From the NCBI GenBank assembly GCA_023433185.1, contig JAEZEN010000301.1, positions 1 to 8,768 of the forward strand: DNA of 8,768 bases, written 5' to 3'. Position numbers and translations under genes: made by a program. Origin of the DNA: Pseudomonadota bacterium. GTDB lineage: Bacteria; Pseudomonadota; Alphaproteobacteria; Rhizobiales; Kaistiaceae. The notes beneath the pieces were generated by a model. That model searched no databases, had not been told where the DNA came from, and saw only the letters and a list, made by a program, of their open reading frames with translations. Below are positions 122 to 8,768 of this stretch, one piece after another (position 1 is the stretch's first letter; each line of letters starts with the position of its first letter).

Positions 122-1051
122 ATGAAACCGAGCTTCCTCACGATCAATCCCGAAGACGGGCTCGATGTCCTGCGCGGCCTGGCATCGCCGGTCCGGATCG
201 GCATCCTCAAGCTCCTGCGCGCCCATGGCGCGCTCAACGTCAACGATATCAGCCGACAGCTCGCCCTGCCGCAATCGACGGTGGCCACCAACATCCAGGT
301 GCTCGAGCAGAGCGGCCTCATCGCGACGAGCACGGTCAAGGCCCGGAAGGGCCATCAGAAGATCTGCTCATCGCTCTACGACGAGATCATCCTCCGCTTC
401 GACGGCGAGGCGCCGACCAAGGACGACAAGGTGGTCGAGGTGGCGATGCCCCTCGGCCTCTTCACGAACTGCGAGGTCAGCGCGCCCTGCGGGCTGTGCT
501 CGACCGACGGGGTCATCGGGCTTCTCGACGTGCCCAACTCGTTCCTCGACCCCGAGCGCGTGCGCGCCGGGCTGGTCTGGTTCGGCCGCGGTCACGTCGA
601 GTACAAGTTCCCGAACAACGCCAAGCTGCTCAATGCCGAGGTCGAATCCGTCGAGTTCGTCATGGAGCTGTCTTCCGAGACGCCCGGCACCAACCTCAAC
701 TGGCCGTCCGACATCACCGTGTGGATCAACGACGTGGCGGTCGGAACCTGGACCTCCCCGGGCGACTACGGCGACAAGCGGGGGGTGCATACCCCTTCCT
801 GGTGGAAGCTCGAGGGCTCGCAATACGGCAAGCTGAAGACCTGGAAAGTGGGCGCCTCCGGGACCTTCATCGACGGCGTTCGGATCTCCGACATCGCCCT
901 CGCCGATCTCGCCATCGATGCCCACCACTCCATCCGCCTCAAGATCGGCATCGACGAGAAGGCCAGCCATCCCGGCGGCGTCAACATCTTCGGCCGGGGC
1001 TTCGGGAACTACGACCAGGACATCGTCATGCGCATCAACCTGCGGCGATAG
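122..1051 (+). CDS. ArsR-like winged-helix transcriptional regulator with large C-terminal domain
   Basis: This is a predicted 309-residue DNA-binding regulator. Residues about 14-80 form an ArsR-like winged helix: the segment LRGLASPVRIGILKLL resembles the first helices of the family, residues 49-67 (LPQSTVATNIQVLEQSGLI) look like the recognition helix and following turn, and a basic wing (KARKGHQK) follows. Classical ArsR proteins are about 100 residues, so the remaining 220 are an extra domain. That part is rich in Trp, Gly and predicted beta strands and resembles the long regulators of the COG4189 type, perhaps with a carbohydrate-binding-like fold (inference). Cysteines at 117, 123 and 126 (CX5CX2C) follow the HTH and could bind metal or sense redox. 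The ATG at 122 is the only plausible start, because an in-frame TAA lies at 74-76 with no other ATG, GTG or TTG between. I see no clear Shine-Dalgarno sequence. The gene converges on the sugar transferase gene with a 46-base gap, so it has its own promoter. Its link to polysaccharide control is suggested only by position. Confidence 0.85.
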   Translation: MKPSFLTINPEDGLDVLRGLASPVRIGILKLLRAHGALNVNDISRQLALPQSTVATNIQVLEQSGLIATSTVKARKGHQKICSSLYDEIILRFDGEAPTKDDKVVEVAMPLGLFTNCEVSAPCGLCSTDGVIGLLDVPNSFLDPERVRAGLVWFGRGHVEYKFPNNAKLLNAEVESVEFVMELSSETPGTNLNWPSDITVWINDVAVGTWTSPGDYGDKRGVHTPSWWKLEGSQYGKLKTWKVGASGTFIDGVRISDIALADLAIDAHHSIRLKIGIDEKASHPGGVNIFGRGFGNYDQDIVMRINLRR

Positions 1052-1097: not shown

Positions 1098-2678
1098 TCA
1101 GTAGGCGTTCTCGGCCTTGAGGACCGCGATGGGCGTCAGCGCCAGGATGTAGAGGTCGAACAGCACCGACCAGTGCTCGATATAGTCGAGGTCGTATTCG
1201 ACCCGGCGCTGGAGCTTCTCCTGCGTATCGGTCGCGCCGCGAAGGCCGTTGACCTGGGCCCACCCGGTGATGCCGGGCTTGACACGGTGGCGGGCGAAAT
1301 ACCCGTCGACCACCTGCTCGAAGAGCTTGTCGGTGAGGATCCGACCCTCGACCGCATGCGGACGCGGGCCGACCAGCGAGATCGTCCCCTGGAAGACGAC
1401 GTTGAAGATCTGGGGAAGCTCGTCGAGGCTGGTCCGCCGGATGAAGCGGCCGACCCCGGTGACGCGGGGATCGTCCGCGGTGACCTGCTTCTTCGCCTGA
1501 TGATCGGTCATGTCGGTGCGGAGGGAGCGGAACTTGTAGACCTCGATGACCTCGTTGTTGAAGCCGTAGCGCTTCTGCCGGAACAGCACGGGGCCGGGGC
1601 TGTCGAGCTTGATGGCAAGCGCAATGAGCCCCATCACCGGCAAGGCGAGGAGCAGGATGATGCTGCCGAGGACGCGGTCGAAGAGCCATTTCGAGACGAA
1701 GTCCCAGTCGGCGATCGGCTTGTCGGCGATGTCGAGGAAGGGCACGTCGCCGACAAACGAGTAGGTCCGGTGGCGGAAGCGCAGCGCGGCCGACTGCATC
1801 GACAGGCGAATGTCGACCGGCAGCACCCAGAGCTTCTCCATCATCATTAGGACGCGTTTCTCCGCCGTGATCGGTATGGTGACGATCAGGAGGTCGATGC
1901 GGGCCTTGCGCGCGAACAGCACGAGCTCGTCGATGGTCCCGAGCTTGGGGTAGCCGGCAACGACCGACGGGGACCGCTCGTCGTCGCGGTCGTCGAAGAT
2001 GCCGCAGATGCGGATGTCGTGGTCCGGCGACGCTTCGATCGCTTGAATGAGCTTCTCGGCGGGCGCCCCGCCGCCGACGACGACCGCCCGCCGATCGAGC
2101 AGGCCCTGCCGGGACCATGCACGTATCCGGTTCGCCACGACGACACGGAACGCGATGATCGCTGCGAGACCGAACAGGAACCACAGGAGGAACCAGCCGC
2201 GGGAGAACACGATCCCGGAGCGGGTCATGAAGATGGCGATGGTGAGCGCGGCGAAGACCATCATCCAGGTGGCGAGGACCCGGCCGAGCTGCGGGAGCAG
2301 GCGCTTGGTGGCCACGATCCGGTAGGCGCCGCCCATCTGCGCGATGACCACGTAGAGAACGGCCGCACCGACGATGGCGAGCCCGTAGGGCCAGGGCAGG
2401 CGGTCGCGCGGCTCGACCGTGGCGAGCAGCACGGCGAACCCGACCGCTGCGACGATCGCCGCCTCGGCCACCCGGACGGTGCCGGTGACGATCGCCCGCG
2501 AGATCCCCCGGGTCGAAAGGGCCGCCGCGGCCTCCTCGGCTGCGGGGCTCAGTCGCGGCTCCGTCGTGAAGAACGCAGGCGGGCCCGAGGGTGGCCCGGG
2601 AGGGGCGCCAGGGGCGGTCACCTCGGAGCCGAGGCCTTCGGCCGGCTGCGGCTGGTCCATGTGGGCTTTGATACTCAT
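1098..2678 (-). CDS. Undecaprenyl-phosphate sugar-1-phosphate transferase (polyprenyl phosphotransferase, WcaJ/GumD/WbaP-like)
   Basis: This is a predicted integral inner-membrane enzyme that moves a hexose-1-phosphate (often glucose-1-phosphate from UDP-glucose) to undecaprenyl phosphate, the first step of exopolysaccharide repeat-unit assembly. The 526 residues show a Pro-rich cytosolic N-terminus (about 9-36), four hydrophobic segments (about 66-87, 97-115, 134-152, 161-181), a Rossmann-like CoA_binding_3 region (about 195-315, VVVGGG at 199-204), a membrane hairpin (about 332-357), and the catalytic bacterial sugar transferase domain to the end. Family motifs are intact: KFRSLRTDM (382-390), the catalytic Asp-Glu dyad D419-E420 in SLDELPQ, SLVGPRPH (434-441) and KPGITGWAQVNGLRG (467-481). 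Length and domain order match the large initiating transferases. The ATG at 2678 lacks a clear Shine-Dalgarno sequence, and M7 (2660) is an alternative start. It lies 169 bases downstream of the lyase gene on the same strand, so co-transcription is possible but a separate promoter is likely. Sugar specificity cannot be read from sequence. Confidence 0.95.
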   Translation of the reverse strand: MSIKAHMDQPQPAEGLGSEVTAPGAPPGPPSGPPAFFTTEPRLSPAAEEAAAALSTRGISRAIVTGTVRVAEAAIVAAVGFAVLLATVEPRDRLPWPYGLAIVGAAVLYVVIAQMGGAYRIVATKRLLPQLGRVLATWMMVFAALTIAIFMTRSGIVFSRGWFLLWFLFGLAAIIAFRVVVANRIRAWSRQGLLDRRAVVVGGGAPAEKLIQAIEASPDHDIRICGIFDDRDDERSPSVVAGYPKLGTIDELVLFARKARIDLLIVTIPITAEKRVLMMMEKLWVLPVDIRLSMQSAALRFRHRTYSFVGDVPFLDIADKPIADWDFVSKWLFDRVLGSIILLLALPVMGLIALAIKLDSPGPVLFRQKRYGFNNEVIEVYKFRSLRTDMTDHQAKKQVTADDPRVTGVGRFIRRTSLDELPQIFNVVFQGTISLVGPRPHAVEGRILTDKLFEQVVDGYFARHRVKPGITGWAQVNGLRGATDTQEKLQRRVEYDLDYIEHWSVLFDLYILALTPIAVLKAENAY

Positions 2679-2847: not shown

Positions 2848-4527
2848 TCAGGCGAACAGGAAGTCGTCATCCGAGAGCTTGCCGGGCTTGACCTTGGCGA
2901 GGAAGAGCGAGCTGTCTCCGGCATCGATGAGGACGCCGCCCTTGTGCCCGGACATGGCGTCCTTGACGTCGGCGAACTTCGAAAAGACCTTCCTGTCGAA
3001 CAGGATCACGTCCTGGCCGACCTTGAAGTCGACGATCCGGTCGTTGCCGAAGCCGGGGGCGAAGTAGAACGCGTCCTTTCCCTTGCCGCCTTTGAGAACG
3101 TCGTCGCCGGCGCCCCCGGCGAGGAAGTCGTTGCCCTTGCCGCCGACAAGCTTGTCGTTGCCGTCGGCGCCGTAGAGCTTGTCGTTCCCCTTCTTGCCGT
3201 TGAGGAGATCGTCGCCGTCGCCTCCCTGGAGGTTGTCCTTCCCCTTCGTGCCCTTGAGCGTCTTGTTCGGCTCGCTGACCTGGTTGGGAGCCGGCACCGC
3301 GGAACCGCCCGCGCTTGCCGTGCTGCCGCCCTTCGCCGACCAGGGGCTCTCGAAGGCACCGAGGTCCGGCAGGCCCACCGATGCGCGGCCGACGTCGACA
3401 CCCTTGTCGACGAGATCGCTGGACTGGGCCAGGTGCAGGAACGTGATCTCGGGGAGCGAGCCGTCGGCCTGGCGCGGCCCGCGTGCCACCGTGTCGAGGA
3501 GGGACAGGAAGTCCTCCTTGGTGACCTTGACCGGGAGGTTCCAGGAATTGGCGGTCTGGGTCATGCTCGATGTCATCTGGACGCCGAGCTTGGAGGCGAA
3601 GGCGAGATTGTTGATCAGCGCGTGCTTGCCGCTTTCGAACTGGAAGTCGTACGTGCCGTTGTTGTAGGCGGTGCTGTTGATCACCGACATGGCGATCGTA
3701 GCGCCGTTGGCGACGAAGCCGGCGGCCAGGTTGTCCCACGAGACGGCGTCGATGATGGTGTGCCCGCCCGAGGTGTTGCCGAGGCCGGGGCGCTGGCCGC
3801 CGAGCTTGAAGCCGTTGCCGTCGCCGAGCGGGGTGCCGTCGGGGCCGAAGCCGTTGCCCCAGGCCCAGCAGTTCTCGACGAGGACGCCGTTGCCCTTCCG
3901 GTTGGTGGCGAAAGAGGCATTGAAGAAGTCGAAGCCGTCGTCCGAGTTGTCCCAGGCGCGACAGCCGCGGAGGACGTTTCCGGGGCCGGCATCGATCGCG
4001 AAACCGTCGGCGTTCTCGCCGCCGCCCAGAACGTCGTAGTTTCCGTAGGAATCGCAGTTCAGAAACAGATTGTTAGAGCCCGTGCCGTAGATTGCGATCC
4101 CGGTACCCTCGGCGACGGAAGCACGACCATTGTGATGGGCGACGATCTGCTCGAAAATGTTGTTGCTGGAGTTGCCGTCGATCAGCAGGCCGCCGTCGGG
4201 GCCGTTGGTGATCACCAGGCCCTTGAAGATGTTCCAGGAAACGCTCTCGAGGTGGATGGCCCGCCCGTTGAACTCGTCCGGCGTCGGGATCTTGGCGCCG
4301 TCAAAGATCGGGACCTCGTCCTTGTAGGCCAGGACGCTGATCGGCTTGTCGGCGGTACCGTCCTTCGTCAGCTTCAAGACCTGGGTCAGCTCATACGTCC
4401 CACCGCGGACGTAGATGGTATCTCCAGGTTTAGCTAAATTGTGCGCATATTGGAGGCTAGAGAAAGGGCTGTCGATGGACCCGCTATTTGAATTGGAGCC
4501 GGTTGTTGAGACGTAGTAAGTGGCCAT
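2848..4527 (-). CDS. Secreted beta-helix polysaccharide lyase (PL9-like) with RTX repeats
   Basis: This 559-residue protein appears to be an extracellular uronate-polymer lyase or related enzyme. Residues about 1-395 form a right-handed parallel beta-helix with an N-terminal motif (YYVSTTGSNSNSGS... GDTIYVRGGTY) and a DLGAFE ending (388-393), as in family 9 lyases. The PL9 calcium and catalytic pattern is recognisable: D174 in NADGF, D196, D197 and D200 in NSDDGFD, and K241 in GNGFKLGG, which aligns with the catalytic lysine of the family. A Gly/Ser/Ala/Pro linker (about 398-418) leads to five or six RTX nonapeptides (about 425-485, GGxGxD type) and a C-terminal region ending DDDFLFA, typical of a type I secretion signal. 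There is no Sec signal peptide, which agrees with type I export. Within a polysaccharide locus it may trim or release the cell's own polymer, like RTX glycanases near rhizobial EPS genes, but plant pectin is an equally possible substrate. A C5-epimerase is an alternative. No transporter lies in this window. The ATG at 4527 has only a weak ribosome-binding site. Confidence 0.85.
   Translation of the reverse strand: MATYYVSTTGSNSNSGSIDSPFSSLQYAHNLAKPGDTIYVRGGTYELTQVLKLTKDGTADKPISVLAYKDEVPIFDGAKIPTPDEFNGRAIHLESVSWNIFKGLVITNGPDGGLLIDGNSSNNIFEQIVAHHNGRASVAEGTGIAIYGTGSNNLFLNCDSYGNYDVLGGGENADGFAIDAGPGNVLRGCRAWDNSDDGFDFFNASFATNRKGNGVLVENCWAWGNGFGPDGTPLGDGNGFKLGGQRPGLGNTSGGHTIIDAVSWDNLAAGFVANGATIAMSVINSTAYNNGTYDFQFESGKHALINNLAFASKLGVQMTSSMTQTANSWNLPVKVTKEDFLSLLDTVARGPRQADGSLPEITFLHLAQSSDLVDKGVDVGRASVGLPDLGAFESPWSAKGGSTASAGGSAVPAPNQVSEPNKTLKGTKGKDNLQGGDGDDLLNGKKGNDKLYGADGNDKLVGGKGNDFLAGGAGDDVLKGGKGKDAFYFAPGFGNDRIVDFKVGQDVILFDRKVFSKFADVKDAMSGHKGGVLIDAGDSSLFLAKVKPGKLSDDDFLFA
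3079..3255 (-). repeat. RTX calcium-binding nonapeptide repeat block (within the lyase gene)
   Basis: Codons for residues about 425-483 of the lyase encode tandem nine-residue units of the GGxGxDxLx type, for example LQGGDGDDL, LNGKKGNDK, LYGADGNDK, LVGGKGNDF, LAGGAGDDV and LKGGKGKDA. Such repeats form a beta-roll that folds on binding calcium outside the cell, driving folding after type I secretion. Several units carry Lys in place of the usual second Gly, so calcium affinity could differ between units. Confidence 0.9.
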
Positions 4528-4870: not shown

Positions 4871-4874
4871 ATGA
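4770..4874 (+). CDS. Candidate 34-residue leader peptide overlapping the polymerase start
   Basis: A GTG-initiated ORF begins nine bases after the strong purine-rich AGGAGGGGAGGAA (4749-4761) and encodes 34 residues. An internal ATG at 4830 would give 14 residues. Its TGA (4872-4874) overlaps the proposed polymerase ATG (4871) as ATGA, the usual arrangement for translational coupling. The peptide has no recognised domain, and the reading frame is open upstream without starting at a known gene, so the arrangement may be accidental. The alternative is that the purine run serves an extended polymerase start, GTG 4775 in the main frame. Confidence 0.25.
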   Translation: MPWRRTSSGELVPSAGCGAAMPYPVACTEGGLEA

Positions 4875-7090
4875 CACCGGCCTCCCGTCATCGCGGCGAT
4901 CGCGCTTCCTTCGGCGGCGTCGCCTGGATCCTGTCTGCGATCCTCGTCGTCTCGCCGCTGCTGCTCGGCAGCAACCGGCCGGCATTCTGGGTATTCAACG
5001 GCGTGCTGGCGGTGGCGGCCGTCGCCGTCCTGGTTGGCCTCGCGTGGCGTCGCGAGGTGCCGGAGGCCGACTGGCGTCCCGTGGCGTGGGGGCTGGTCGG
5101 CGTCTCCGCCGTCATGGCGTGGATGGTGATCCAGGCGGTCCCGCTGGCCGGCGCCTTCCCGAGGCTGCTCTTCCTCACCGGTCGATCAGGGGCGGTCGAC
5201 ACGTTCCGCACGATCAGCGTCGACCCGGCTGCGACGTTGACCGCGATCGTCCGCTTCGCCACGCCGGCGCTTCTCGGCTTCGTCGCGCTCGTGGCCTATC
5301 TCGATCGCGAAGGCGCCCGCCGCGCGTCGCGGCTTCTCGACATCGTGATCCTGGTCGCGAGCCTGATCAGCGCCTACGGGCTCTTCGCCCTCCATTTCGG
5401 CTCCGGCCAGCCCGCGCTGGTCGCGTCGCCCGACTACGCGGGCTTCCTCACCGGCACCTTCGTCAACCGGAACACCGCGGCGACCTATCTGTCGATCGCG
5501 CTCGTCGCCTGCCTGGCGCGCTTTCTCGAAATGGCCGCGCAGCCCCTGCCCGCGGGCACCCGCAGGCGGCAGGCGCCGCGCGAGCGATCATTCGGCGGGG
5601 TCTACATCGTCGCCGCAGCCTTCCTCGCCACCGCCGTGCTCAGCACCGGCTCGCGCGCGGGCATGGTCGCGGGCCTGCTCGGCATCGCCGCCACCCTCGC
5701 GGTCGGCGCGCGGGGAGTCCTGCGCTCCGGCGGCCGGACCTGGATCGTGATCGCCGGCGGGGTGGTGGCCGTGGCGGTGGTCGCGGTCCTCGCGGCGGGG
5801 TCCGTGCTCGAGCGGATCGGCGAGGGGCAGGTCTCCGACGACATCCGCTTCGCGGTCTATGCGAACACCCTCGACATGATCGAGGACCGGCCGTTCCTCG
5901 GCCACGGCGCCGGGTCCTTCGCGACGCTGTTCCCGCTGTATCACGGGCCCGACGTCCCTTCGGAGCGGGTCTGGCTCAGCGCCCACAACAGCTACCTCCA
6001 GGCGGCGGCGGAGCTCGGCCTGCCGGCGCTGGCGGTGATGCTCCTGGTGCTCAGCGGCGCCTTCGTCAACGTCCTCGCCAACGCCCTGTCGCCGCGCGCC
6101 GCGTCGGTCTCGGTCGCGGCCGTCGGCGCCTTCGTCGTCGTCGCGGTCCATTCGCTCCTCGACTTCAGCATCCAGATCGAGGCGGTGGCGATCCTCTTCG
6201 CCATCCTGGTCGGCGCCGGTACGGGCGCCGCGCTCGGCGCCCGGGTCGGATCGCCGACGGCCGAGCCGGAACCGGCGCCCGCGGCGCGCGACCTGACGCC
6301 ACGGACGATCCGTACGCGGCTGGCCTATACCGTCGTGAAGGAGGCGCCGTCGGCTGCGACGGAACCGGAAGGGGCACCGCGACGGATCTACGTTTTCGGC
6401 GACCTCCATGGACGCAGCGACCTTGCCGCCGGCCTCAAGGCCGCGATTGCGCGGGACATGACGGAGCGGCCATGCGAGCGTCCGGTGATCGTCGGCCTCG
6501 GCGACTACATCGACCGCGGGCCGGATTCGCGGGGCGTGCTCGAGTTGCTGTCGACGGGGCTCCATCCCGAGGCGGATCACGTCTTCATCCGCGGCAACCA
6601 CGAGCAACTGGTCATCGACGCCCTGGCCGGCGACGAGTCGGCCTATGACGTGTGGGTGCAGTCCGGCGGTCTCGAATGCCTGAAATCCTATGGGGTCGAC
6701 ATTCGCGAGGCGCTGCGCGGCCGCGAAGGCTTCGAAGCGACCCGAAAGGAGTTCGCACGGATTTTACCATACGCGCATTTCGATTTTCTCCGGGTCATGC
6801 CCATCAAGTACCTTGAGGGGGAGTATCTGTTCGTCCACGGCGGGGTCGATCCCGCCCGGCGGCTGGAAGAGCAGGCGGCCCGGGACTTTCTGTGGCACCG
6901 GCACGAGGATCAGAGCCGCGACGATGTCTTCGAGAGAGTTGTCGTCCATGGTCACACGCCGGTTCCCGAGCCGTTCCTCGGCCGCTACCGAATCAATCTC
7001 GACACCGGCGCCTACGCATCAAATCGACTTAGTTGCCTCGTACTCGAGGGCCACGACCGGCGGCTCCTGGAGCTCTCCGATGGACGCTGA
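4871..7090 (+). CDS. O-antigen ligase/Wzy-type polymerase fused to a PPP-family metallophosphatase
   Basis: This 739-residue protein has two parts. Residues about 13-455 are a polytopic membrane domain with roughly 12 hydrophobic segments and a large periplasmic loop (about 312-372). It carries Wzy_C/O-antigen ligase hallmarks: FVNRNTAATY (197-206), STGSRAG (258-264), GHGAGSF (344-350) and AHNSYLQAAAELG (371-383), where H372 fits the conserved ligase histidine. It would join lipid-linked repeat units. After a Pro/Ala linker (about 456-503), residues 504-735 form a complete PPP-type phosphatase with GDLHGR (510-515), GDYIDRGPDS (544-553), RGNHE (574-578), VHGG (655-658) and HGHTP (693-697). 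Metal ligands would be D511, H513, D545, N576, H656 and H695, with H577 as the catalytic His. GNHE rather than GNHD favours a protein phosphatase over ApaH. An even number of membrane spans would place this domain in the cytosol. The chosen ATG overlaps a short upstream ORF (ATGA) but has GGAGG only one base away. Alternatives in frame are GTG 4775, ATG 4712, 4817 and 4847. The BY-kinase gene follows after 34 bases, so they are probably one operon. Confidence 0.9.
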   Translation: MTPASRHRGDRASFGGVAWILSAILVVSPLLLGSNRPAFWVFNGVLAVAAVAVLVGLAWRREVPEADWRPVAWGLVGVSAVMAWMVIQAVPLAGAFPRLLFLTGRSGAVDTFRTISVDPAATLTAIVRFATPALLGFVALVAYLDREGARRASRLLDIVILVASLISAYGLFALHFGSGQPALVASPDYAGFLTGTFVNRNTAATYLSIALVACLARFLEMAAQPLPAGTRRRQAPRERSFGGVYIVAAAFLATAVLSTGSRAGMVAGLLGIAATLAVGARGVLRSGGRTWIVIAGGVVAVAVVAVLAAGSVLERIGEGQVSDDIRFAVYANTLDMIEDRPFLGHGAGSFATLFPLYHGPDVPSERVWLSAHNSYLQAAAELGLPALAVMLLVLSGAFVNVLANALSPRAASVSVAAVGAFVVVAVHSLLDFSIQIEAVAILFAILVGAGTGAALGARVGSPTAEPEPAPAARDLTPRTIRTRLAYTVVKEAPSAATEPEGAPRRIYVFGDLHGRSDLAAGLKAAIARDMTERPCERPVIVGLGDYIDRGPDSRGVLELLSTGLHPEADHVFIRGNHEQLVIDALAGDESAYDVWVQSGGLECLKSYGVDIREALRGREGFEATRKEFARILPYAHFDFLRVMPIKYLEGEYLFVHGGVDPARRLEEQAARDFLWHRHEDQSRDDVFERVVVHGHTPVPEPFLGRYRINLDTGAYASNRLSCLVLEGHDRRLLELSDGR

Positions 7091-7124: not shown

Positions 7125-8768
7125 ATGGATCGTCTGGTCCACGAGACATGGAGCGGCAGAGTGCCTGACGAACAGGGGAGCGGCCTCGATTCCGCCCGCT
7201 TCGACCTGAAGTCCGGTGTCGCCTTCACGCGCCGGCGATGGCGGACCATCTTCTTCACCGCGCTCGGCGTGATGGGGCTGATCGTGCTCGCCGCCGCGCA
7301 GCTCGACCGCCGCTATACCGCCTCGGCCCTTGTCGTGGTCGATTCCCGCGCCTCGCAGCTCGTCGGCTTCGACGCCGCCTCCGACCCGGTGAGTGCCGGC
7401 TTCGCCATCGATGCCGAGGTCGCGATCGCCCGCTCGCCATCGGTGATCGAGCGCGTCGTCCGCCAGCTCGACCTGTGGCGGGCGCCGGGCTTCGCGCCAC
7501 GCCCCTCGCTCACCGACCGGCTCCTGGTGATGGTCGGCCTCGCCGAACCGGTGTCGGAAGCACCGCCCGAAAACTGGGCCAGCCTGACGCCGGAACAGCG
7601 CCTCGACGTCATCGCGTCCGTCGAGCGGGCCCTCGACATCCAGCGGCGCCCGCTGACCAGCCTCATCGACATCTCCGCCACCGCCCGGTCCCCCGAGCTC
7701 GCCGCGGCCATCGCCAATGCCCTCGCCGAGACCTATCTCGCGGTCCAGACCGACGAGAAGGTCCAGTCGACGCAGCGGGCCGTGGATTTCCTCCGTGATC
7801 GGGTGAGCGAGCTGGCGCGGGAGATCGACGCGCTCGAGGCGGAGCTCGAGGATTTCGTGACCGCGAGGCTCGCCGAGCTCGGCTCGGCGGAAGCCCGCGC
7901 CATGCTGCTCGCCCTCGACCGCAACGCCGAATCGCGGGCGAACCTCGTCAGGAGCCTCAACGATCTCCAGAGTGCCCTCGACGAGCAGAACTTCGACCGT
8001 GCCGTCGACCTGGTCGGCGGCACGACGGCCGACTATGCCCGCCGCAGGGCGGCGCTCCTCGCCCAGCTCGAGACGGCGACGCTCAGTCCCAGCGACATGC
8101 GGCGTATCCAGGACGATCTCGCCAGGACCGAGGAGGAGATCCGCGCGGCGGCCGCGAGCCGGGCCGCGATGCTCCGCACGGAGATCGCCGAGACCGAACG
8201 CTCGGGTGCCCAGCTCCGCGCGCGGCTCGAGACGGAGCTCGGCCAGCAGGACGTGCCGCGCGAAGTCGGAACGGAGCTGTTTCGGCTCCAGCGCGATGCC
8301 GAGATCCAGCGCAACCTCTACAGCAGCTACCTCACCAAGCTCCGCCAGGTCGAGCAGCAGTCGGGCTTCGACCTGCCCGACAGCCGCATCGCGGCCCCGG
8401 CGACGCCGCCGCGGCAAGCGAGCTATCCGCCGCTCGCCGCGATCGGGCTGGGCGGCCTCTTCGTCTCGCTCTTCGCCGGTTTCGGCGCGGCCCTTCTCAG
8501 GGAGTACTATGTCGGGGGCGCGACGACCGCGGAGCAGCTCGAGGCCGTGACCGGCGTGCCGGTGATCGCCGCGATACCCGCCTTCAGGCCGCGGCCGGGC
8601 TCGGACCCGGCGCCCGACCTCGCCATCGTCACGGAGCCGCTTTCGGCGTTCTCGGAATCGATCCGTCGCATGCGGCTCGGTATCGAGGCCTATGTCCGGC
8701 AGGACAGGTACTGCCTCTTCGTCACCTCGGCCTTTCCCGACGAGGGCAAGACGACGCTCGCCCTCGCC
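7125..8768 (+). CDS. Wzz/Wzc-like chain-length determinant with BY-kinase domain (3' end beyond window)
   Basis: The frame is open from the ATG at 7125 to the right edge (548 codons, no stop), so the gene is partial. The product is an inner-membrane polysaccharide co-polymerase that sets chain length and couples synthesis to export by tyrosine autophosphorylation. Order of parts: cytosolic N-terminus; first membrane span about 41-60 after basic TRRRWR; Wzz-type periplasmic region (about 61-205); long helical, probably coiled-coil segment (about 210-410) ending in a GNVR-like LFRLQRDAEIQRNLYSSYL (385-403); Pro-rich RIAAPATPPRQASYPP (421-436); second span about 437-458; and the start of the kinase with Walker A SAFPDEGKTT (535-544). 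Walker A', Walker B and the tyrosine cluster would lie outside the window, so kinase activity cannot be confirmed; a split or Tyr-poor form is possible. The start has a GGAAG ribosome-binding site, though the GTG 12 codons on is an alternative. It follows the polymerase-phosphatase gene closely and is likely its functional partner. Confidence 0.9.
   Translation, partial: MDRLVHETWSGRVPDEQGSGLDSARFDLKSGVAFTRRRWRTIFFTALGVMGLIVLAAAQLDRRYTASALVVVDSRASQLVGFDAASDPVSAGFAIDAEVAIARSPSVIERVVRQLDLWRAPGFAPRPSLTDRLLVMVGLAEPVSEAPPENWASLTPEQRLDVIASVERALDIQRRPLTSLIDISATARSPELAAAIANALAETYLAVQTDEKVQSTQRAVDFLRDRVSELAREIDALEAELEDFVTARLAELGSAEARAMLLALDRNAESRANLVRSLNDLQSALDEQNFDRAVDLVGGTTADYARRRAALLAQLETATLSPSDMRRIQDDLARTEEEIRAAAASRAAMLRTEIAETERSGAQLRARLETELGQQDVPREVGTELFRLQRDAEIQRNLYSSYLTKLRQVEQQSGFDLPDSRIAAPATPPRQASYPPLAAIGLGGLFVSLFAGFGAALLREYYVGGATTAEQLEAVTGVPVIAAIPAFRPRPGSDPAPDLAIVTEPLSAFSESIRRMRLGIEAYVRQDRYCLFVTSAFPDEGKTTLALA

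Follow-up and report, generated by a model that had tools for sequence, protein, structure and literature searches.

The 8,768-nucleotide stretch of DNA analyzed here (the window; contig JAEZEN010000301.1 of the alphaproteobacterial assembly GCA_023433185.1, family Kaistiaceae) carries a gene that joins two complete domains in frame: a putative polysaccharide polymerase of the Wzy/O-antigen ligase type and a metallophosphatase of the PPP family. The fusion is conserved, its catalytic residues are intact, and its position beside a kinase gene recurs in other genomes; the phosphatase is predicted to lie on the cytoplasmic side of the membrane. On balance, we lean toward a reading in which a PssZ-type phosphatase is tethered to a Wzy polymerase and most likely acts on the adjacent polysaccharide co-polymerase (PCP), of the bacterial tyrosine kinase (BY-kinase) type, or on a different phosphoprotein within the complex.

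Putative polymerase and phosphatase domains in one reading frame

The frame at positions 4871-7090 of the forward strand encodes 739 amino acids and is free of internal stops. Its product matches two Pfam families only, Wzy_C (PF04932; residues 248-390, 76.5 bits against a cut-off of 31.7) and Metallophos (PF00149; residues 505-705, 53.4 bits against a cut-off of 21.5). An AlphaFold model made with 31 homologues as input (mean predicted local distance difference test [pLDDT] 78.6; predicted TM-score [pTM] 0.60) has 12 long helices in residues 15-459, low confidence at residues 462-500, and a PPP part that is mostly confident from about residue 503. A previous reading of the window from its letters alone (the sequence-only reading) had described a single 739-codon frame joining a 12-span ligase/polymerase to a phosphatase across a linker, and had named structure prediction as a check. 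The reading frame, the Pfam matches, and the model confirm this in-frame fusion of two complete domains and the disordered linker between them (Table 1). The codon-phase pattern of G+C continues unbroken through the linker, with third positions highest or nearly so throughout. In the analysis over 6250-7090, G+C at third positions was about 0.8 to 1.0 in the polymerase half and about 0.65 to 0.9 in the phosphatase half, perhaps a trace of separate histories.

The phosphatase does not appear to have a translation start of its own. The AAGGAGG at 6338-6344 is present. Between residues 441 and 512, only one in-frame ATG, GTG, or TTG codon occurs; this is the GTG at 6335, which precedes the AAGGAGG and has no Shine-Dalgarno-like stretch within 20 bases upstream. 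We therefore rejected a hidden internal start, as the sequence-only reading had done.

The membrane part has the properties of the WaaL/Wzy_C superfamily: a PF04932 score above cut-off, about 12 spans, a large late loop at residues 317-383, and a WaaL-like fold (Foldseek match of the model to 7tpg, E 1.1e-6, TMt 0.54). Six of its residues (W84, Q88, R262, R326, R340, and H372) are invariant in all 31 of the fused proteins that we aligned. Unfused Wzy_C relatives are mostly 435 to 524 amino acids long, and the six closest end soon after the last span, unlike the fusion. It is from the locus context, with a WcaJ gene and a PCP gene in the window, that we take the domain to be a putative polymerase (Wzy).

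The distribution of charge suggests how the protein sits in the membrane. Averaged over the 31 aligned rows, with span limits taken from the model and the 66-residue loop before span 10 left out, lysines and arginines in the short loops number 1.75 per 10 residues where the loops face the cytoplasm and 0.30 where they face the periplasm. This positive-inside pattern and the 12 spans place both termini inside, so the phosphatase is predicted to be on the cytoplasmic face and the loop at 317-383 in the periplasm. The sequence-only reading had proposed that polymerization is coupled to dephosphorylation of a protein or lipid-linked substrate. Such coupling is plausible, but the topology makes a lipid-linked substrate in the periplasm unlikely, and a periplasmic phosphatase acting on one is disfavored.

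Within the otherwise variable linker, one motif is kept. At about residues 484-492, the window protein reads LAYTVVKEA; other fused proteins and some unfused kin have ETVxVxIP and variants, as judged by eye. The motif also lies near the C terminus of the closest unfused kin (P0121 to P0126, L003, and L004), and two fused proteins (P0011 and P0012) have two copies each. It was unseen in the alignments of more distant Wzys that we inspected by eye.

The phosphatase part has every PPP signature, as the sequence-only reading had listed: GDLHG at 510-514, GDYIDRG at 544-550, RGNHE at 574-578, VHGG at 655-658, and HGHT at 693-696. These correspond to the GDxHG, GDxxDRG, GNHE, HxG, and HGH elements of the family with its metal ligands, and D511, H513, D545, N576, H577, H656, H693, and H695 are invariant in all 31 aligned fusions. 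The CX5R domain of Wzb-type low-molecular-weight protein tyrosine phosphatases (LMW-PTPs) is not among the Pfam matches of the protein. Foldseek matched this part best to lambda phosphatase (E 3.7e-7) and then to Rhizobiales-like phosphatase 2 (RLPH2; 1.0e-6), with PnkP phosphatase, ApaH, and the Shewanella cold-active tyrosine phosphatase as further matches; identity to RLPH2, the Shewanella enzyme, and lambda phosphatase is about 16 to 21%. The defining feature of the RLPH2 class is a GNHD variant, and the fused protein, which has GNHE at the aligned site, falls outside that class. Phosphatase activity, substrate, and any tyrosine specificity of the domain are inferred.

Distribution of the fusion and its split relatives

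Judged from protein sequences, the fusion is a recurrent architecture and no one-off. We searched with the phosphatase part under length limits of 0.55 to 1.75 times 739 amino acids, which excludes ordinary free-standing phosphatases. Wzy_C and Metallophos occur together in 36 proteins (P0001 to P0036, P0001 being the window's own) among the 120 listed of 134 matches. The alignment used 31 of these, each longer than 700 amino acids, and left out the shorter P0002, P0010, P0013, P0019, and P0027. A search with the Wzy part gave 65 matches, 11 of them with both domains, and each of the eight closest is a fusion. Among the 30 loci returned when genome contigs were scanned for the pattern, the fused frame is also open in two further assemblies, a Hyphomicrobiales metagenome-assembled genome (MAG; L001) and a Reyranellaceae MAG (L002). 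The pairing of Wzy_C with Metallophos, for which the sequence-only reading had suggested a search, is present in at least 36 proteins among the matches listed. That reading was not aware of it as a standard architecture; we found no polymerase-phosphatase fusion in the literature covered, open-license PMC papers judged in part by title.

The fusion is nevertheless rare among the genomes searched. In overlapping samples of 397 genomes (the order of G003), 28 genomes (the family of G001), and 76 genomes (the order of G002), no full-length single-frame fusion other than those of G001 and G002 was among the matches listed. When we checked loci L031 to L060 and L161 to L191, both domains lay in one open frame only at L031 and L172, which are again in G001 and G002, the genomes of L001 and L002.

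Relatives with two genes indicate that the fusion is the fused form of a Wzy, PPP, PCP operon order. The PCP gene lies immediately 3' in all three of the fused loci seen (the window, L001, and L002) and in both split loci of Bauldia (L003 and L004). The Bauldia loci have the same gene order, with Wzy (476 and 477 amino acids) and PPP in separate, overlapping frames; Wzy ends just past the linker motif, and GTG codons in the PPP frame occur, at their nearest, within about 30 bases. The Wzy part was matched in 7 of the 28 genomes of G001's family, fused in G001 only and split from an adjacent PPP gene in the other six (G003, G004, G295, G349, G399, and G403). L051 and L161 to L163 are likewise split, with overlapping frames in L161 and L163. 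In G349 (L162) and in G383 (L149), a genome of the order, Wzy and PPP share a frame that is broken by a single stop codon between them, an arrangement one step from the fused state. The sequence-only reading had counted two-gene orthologues in close relatives as grounds against the fusion. Such orthologues exist, in Bauldia, L051, and L161 to L163, yet they do not disprove the fusion; they show where it came from. In another genome (L065, G158), there are two tandem Wzy-PPP-PCP sets, the second PCP partly matched.

Two quick trees, with SH-aLRT support only, bear on the history of the fusion. On the Wzy tree of 85 sequences, which left out L051 and L161 to L163, the fused state takes three changes, and a supported clade of 39 (99) holds the 31 fused rows, the unfused P0121 to P0126, and two Bauldia rows. 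This shared clade is compatible with a single fusion followed by later splits and with several fusions. On the PPP tree of 149 domains, the 36 fused domains and two from Bauldia form one clade (98).

Phosphatase genes in PCP regions

The PCPs of L001 and L002 are full BY-kinases by NCBIfam, with tyrosine-rich C-terminal tails, and by eye all four PCPs of L001 to L004 have Walker A, A', and B motifs and three to five tail tyrosines. We searched 199 genomes of G003's order with the L001 PCP; 79 matched, at 101 listed places. For the first 80 places (64 genomes), we took regions extending 8.5 kb each way or to the end of the contig, which left 15 of the 80 shorter than 17 kb, and scanned them with PPP and LMW-PTP hidden Markov models built in this analysis. 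A PPP gene lies within 8.5 kb in 28 of the 80 regions, from 28 genomes, and in 16 of the 24 with the best-scoring PCPs, compared with 0 of 11 control regions 80 to 120 kb away on the same contigs. The binomial tail for this proximity is about 1e-32 on a rough guess of three PPP genes per 4.5 Mb, though regions that share a genome or come from close kin are nonindependent. The nearest PPP gene is on the strand of the PCP in 24 of the 28 regions. In 10 regions the distance is within 200 bp, and PPP is upstream of PCP in all 11 such pairs, one region having two. Among the 21 remaining places, coordinates show a PPP gene within 4 kb in at least three (G074, G089, and G130). Wherever both Wzy and PPP were detected in the surveyed regions, they are in separate frames.

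No LMW-PTP gene was found in any of the 80 regions with the model built from eight LMW-PTPs. That model recovers its own eight sequences, and a profile of the same proteins finds the Wzb PDB entries 2fek, 2wja, and 2wmy, so a model too insensitive to detect such genes does not account for the zero. The eight LMW-PTP genes come from G001 to G004, and from their motifs, by eye, we take most of them to be arsenate reductase-like and one, in G002, to be Wzb-like.

A Walker A motif of the form GK(S/T) was found in all 28 PCPs with a PPP gene nearby and in 49 of the 52 without. At least three tyrosines in the last 30 residues were seen in 27 of the 28 and in 36 of the 52 (Fisher p 0.004, uncorrected for kinship).

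A proposed role for the tethered phosphatase

In the role that we favor, the product of the fused gene would serve two functions within an exopolysaccharide (EPS) machine of the Wzx/Wzy type. Residues 1-460 would be the Wzy polymerase, building chains at the periplasmic face, and the last 240 residues a flexibly linked PssZ-type PPP at the cytoplasmic face. The co-polymerase oligomer would set length and export while the tyrosines clustered at its C terminus gain and lose phosphate in turn. The tethered phosphatase would dephosphorylate the co-polymerase or one of its partners at that very place, and the tether would thereby put an off-switch at the polymerase under kinase control. BY-kinase co-polymerases such as Wzc are thought to require dephosphorylation, as by Wzb, for continued EPS synthesis. 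The PPP domain would share with Wzb this proposed role of partner phosphatase while belonging to another protein family, the Wzb family being the CX5R LMW-PTPs for which no gene lies beside the kinase in the 80 PCP regions. There are hints, then, that the phosphatase may be an off-switch of the neighboring kinase. If so, BY-kinase PCPs gain a candidate phosphatase that is bound to the polymerase or, in relatives, often encoded just upstream of the kinase, and the fusion makes the question of their phosphatase directly testable.

Two systems in the literature come close to this one. In Rhizobium leguminosarum, the Pss-I EPS region includes the gene for a PPP phosphatase, PssZ, that is needed for EPS; a pssZ Tn5 mutant made no EPS and was complemented (PMC6071215; see also PMC7020829). 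PssZ resembles the fused phosphatase in its PPP motifs, its EPS locus (here with WcaJ and PCP neighbors), and its alphaproteobacterial setting, and differs in being a free protein of 263 amino acids rather than the C-terminal domain of a 739-residue protein; the two are likened by description only. In the capsule cluster of Caulobacter, CCNA_00167 is called a "putative Wzb-like metallophosphatase" and is found with Wzc and an O-antigen polymerase/ligase (PMC4241560). It is likewise a metallophosphatase beside such partners, but a separate gene, and this likeness too is one of description; the pssZ named in that paper is a different gene from that of R. leguminosarum. PssZ is thus a known precedent for an EPS locus with a free-standing PPP, whereas we found no PPP fused to a polymerase in the open-license papers covered. 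If the favored role is correct, PssZ, which is needed for EPS, gains a likely place and target.

Several observations weigh against a phosphatase dedicated to the kinase. The window ends before the kinase core and tail of its PCP. In the survey, PPP is more than 1 kb from PCP (1.2 to 8 kb) in 18 of the 28 regions and on the opposite strand in 4, and 52 of the 80 PCP regions lack both PPP and LMW-PTP genes, so having one of these phosphatases close by is not obligatory. The Wzb-like LMW-PTP of G002 belongs to a genome that holds the fusion L002, where it is encoded elsewhere. PPPs of this family are not confined to EPS: among four plasmid contexts inspected, one has polysaccharide-synthesis neighbors, two do not, and one is unclear. 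RLPH2, the nearest tyrosine-specific PPP (described as a tyrosine phosphatase in PMC12817480), has GNHD where the fusion has GNHE. PssZ is called Ser/Thr specific, with PssA proposed among its targets, and its mutant has wide transcription changes that the authors read as wider regulation (PMC6071215, PMC6628131).

The more specific version of our proposal carries more risk. It holds that the tail is a phosphotyrosine phosphatase that replaces Wzb and resets the BY-kinase at the polymerase, steered by ETVxVxIP as a docking strand, and that close split relatives hold the free phosphatase by the same motif. The motif may be loosely compared with RVxF, which recruits eukaryotic PP1. We consider this version unlikely as it stands.

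The alternative that survives best is a Ser/Thr phosphatase tail acting on another cytoplasmic EPS protein (WcaJ/PssA, a glycosyltransferase, or a regulator), with the fusion only keeping the tail at the complex. The PssZ authors point in this direction by naming PssA and global regulation (PMC6071215, PMC6628131), a WcaJ gene is present in the window, and wcaJ homologues lie beside PPP in L038, L041, L044, and L060. PPP domains also occur in P0086, a GT2 protein, and in P0071, a flippase, but each is a single cluster member and so a possible chimera. The recurrent close neighbor of PPP is nevertheless the PCP, with PPP upstream in every pair within 200 bp, and we give this alternative a minority chance.

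It is also conceivable, if rather unlikely, that the fusion is fortuitous, a stop codon having been lost between adjacent genes and the tether having no role of its own. The same-frame pairs one stop apart in G383 (L149) and G349 (L162), the overlapping frames in Bauldia, L161, and L163, and the nesting of five unfused Wzys (P0121, P0122, and P0124 to P0126) in a mostly fused clade speak for this view. Fusion has, however, been kept down to 37% identity with invariant catalytic residues, and a second family of membrane proteins carries a C-terminal PPP from another clade (see below), both of which speak against it.

A nucleotide phosphatase of the Ap4A hydrolase type, sensing or tuning a nucleotide pool, seems to us a doubtful identity for the tail. 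ApaH is among its fold matches, and in NCBIfam it weakly resembles PrpE (27.6 bits) and a symmetrical Ap4A hydrolase model (20.6 bits); in P0012, PrpE scores 41.9 against 47 for protein phosphatase. The best NCBIfam match is instead the protein phosphatase PRK11439 (39 bits), and the best fold match is lambda protein phosphatase. Since all of these NCBIfam matches are far below their cut-offs, they do not settle the choice between protein and nucleotide phosphatase.

An assembly chimera or frameshift artifact, for which one could say that the window's gene is seen in one record, was rejected as scarcely credible given at least 36 two-domain proteins from several sources, in-phase codons, and the single open frames of L001 and L002 in separate assemblies.

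Neighboring genes and other PPP fusions

The PCP gene starts 34 bp 3' of the stop codon of the fusion. The features of the window are collected in Table 1. The beta-helix/RTX protein may be an enzyme of the locus that is secreted and modifies polysaccharide.

Table 1. Features of the window and of the fused gene
Feature	Position	Strand	Basis
Putative Wzy/WaaL-type polysaccharide polymerase domain, residues 1-460, 12 membrane spans	4871..6250	+	Pfam Wzy_C; model helices; WaaL 7tpg fold match
Disordered linker, residues 461-501, tail motif at ~484-492	6251..6373	+	pLDDT <50 at 462-500; motif by eye
PPP-family (PrpA/PssZ-like) metallophosphatase domain, residues 502-739	6374..7087	+	Pfam; invariant catalytic residues; fold matches
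Wzc/ExoP-like PCP, cut at the window end near Walker A	7125..8768	+	Wzz, GNVR, eps_transp_fam matches
WcaJ-type undecaprenyl-phosphate glucose phosphotransferase, repeat-unit initiator	1098..2678	-	TIGR03023, 468.4 bits against a cut-off of 410.75
Right-handed beta-helix protein, similar to PelN-like pectate lyase, with RTX calcium repeats at the C terminus	2848-4527	-	Domain matches
ArsR-like winged-helix N terminus, then ~220 residues without family match, CEVSAPCGLC stretch	122-1051	+	Open reading frame; domain search

A second kind of fusion came to light among the matches. In P0065, P0073, P0075, P0084, and P0087, a PPP domain follows a hydrophobic protein of another kind, one that Pfam does not name, and these PPPs form a separate clade (99) on the 149-domain tree. 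When residues 1-415 of P0073 were used as query, there were 100 matches, 30 with PPP (29 of them at least 680 amino acids long, Sphingomonas included) and 70 without. P0065, P0073, P0233, P0239, and P0244, all fusions of this kind, are about 700 amino acids long, and those from Sphingomonas are annotated as metallophosphoesterase or hypothetical protein. PF27321 is precomputed on three unfused members of this family, and a scan with the Pfam copy used here does not find it. A profile of the second family (A5) compared with that of the Wzy part (A2) aligned their GxGAG...ExG regions at a probability of 1.1% and an E value of 0.049, which is not significant; the likeness to Wzy is suggestive only, and we do not claim the second family as Wzy. 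A5 had no PDB relative at E <0.9, and the structure model of this fused family (A3; pLDDT 53.8) was too poor for use. A search of 385 genomes of the class at E 1e-60, made without a positive control, did not find P0239.

No plasmid record covered 80% of P0001 or P0239, and no viral contig had the fusion, all 37 matches there being confined to query residues 485-735. Other matches presumably pair PPP with SPOR, TonB_C, DnaJ, or bactofilin domains, to go by their domain accessions. In P0037, P0039, and P0049, the order is reversed, with PPP first, followed by an apparent single span and a long C-terminal part (by eye); that of P0037 has a weak Sel1 match.

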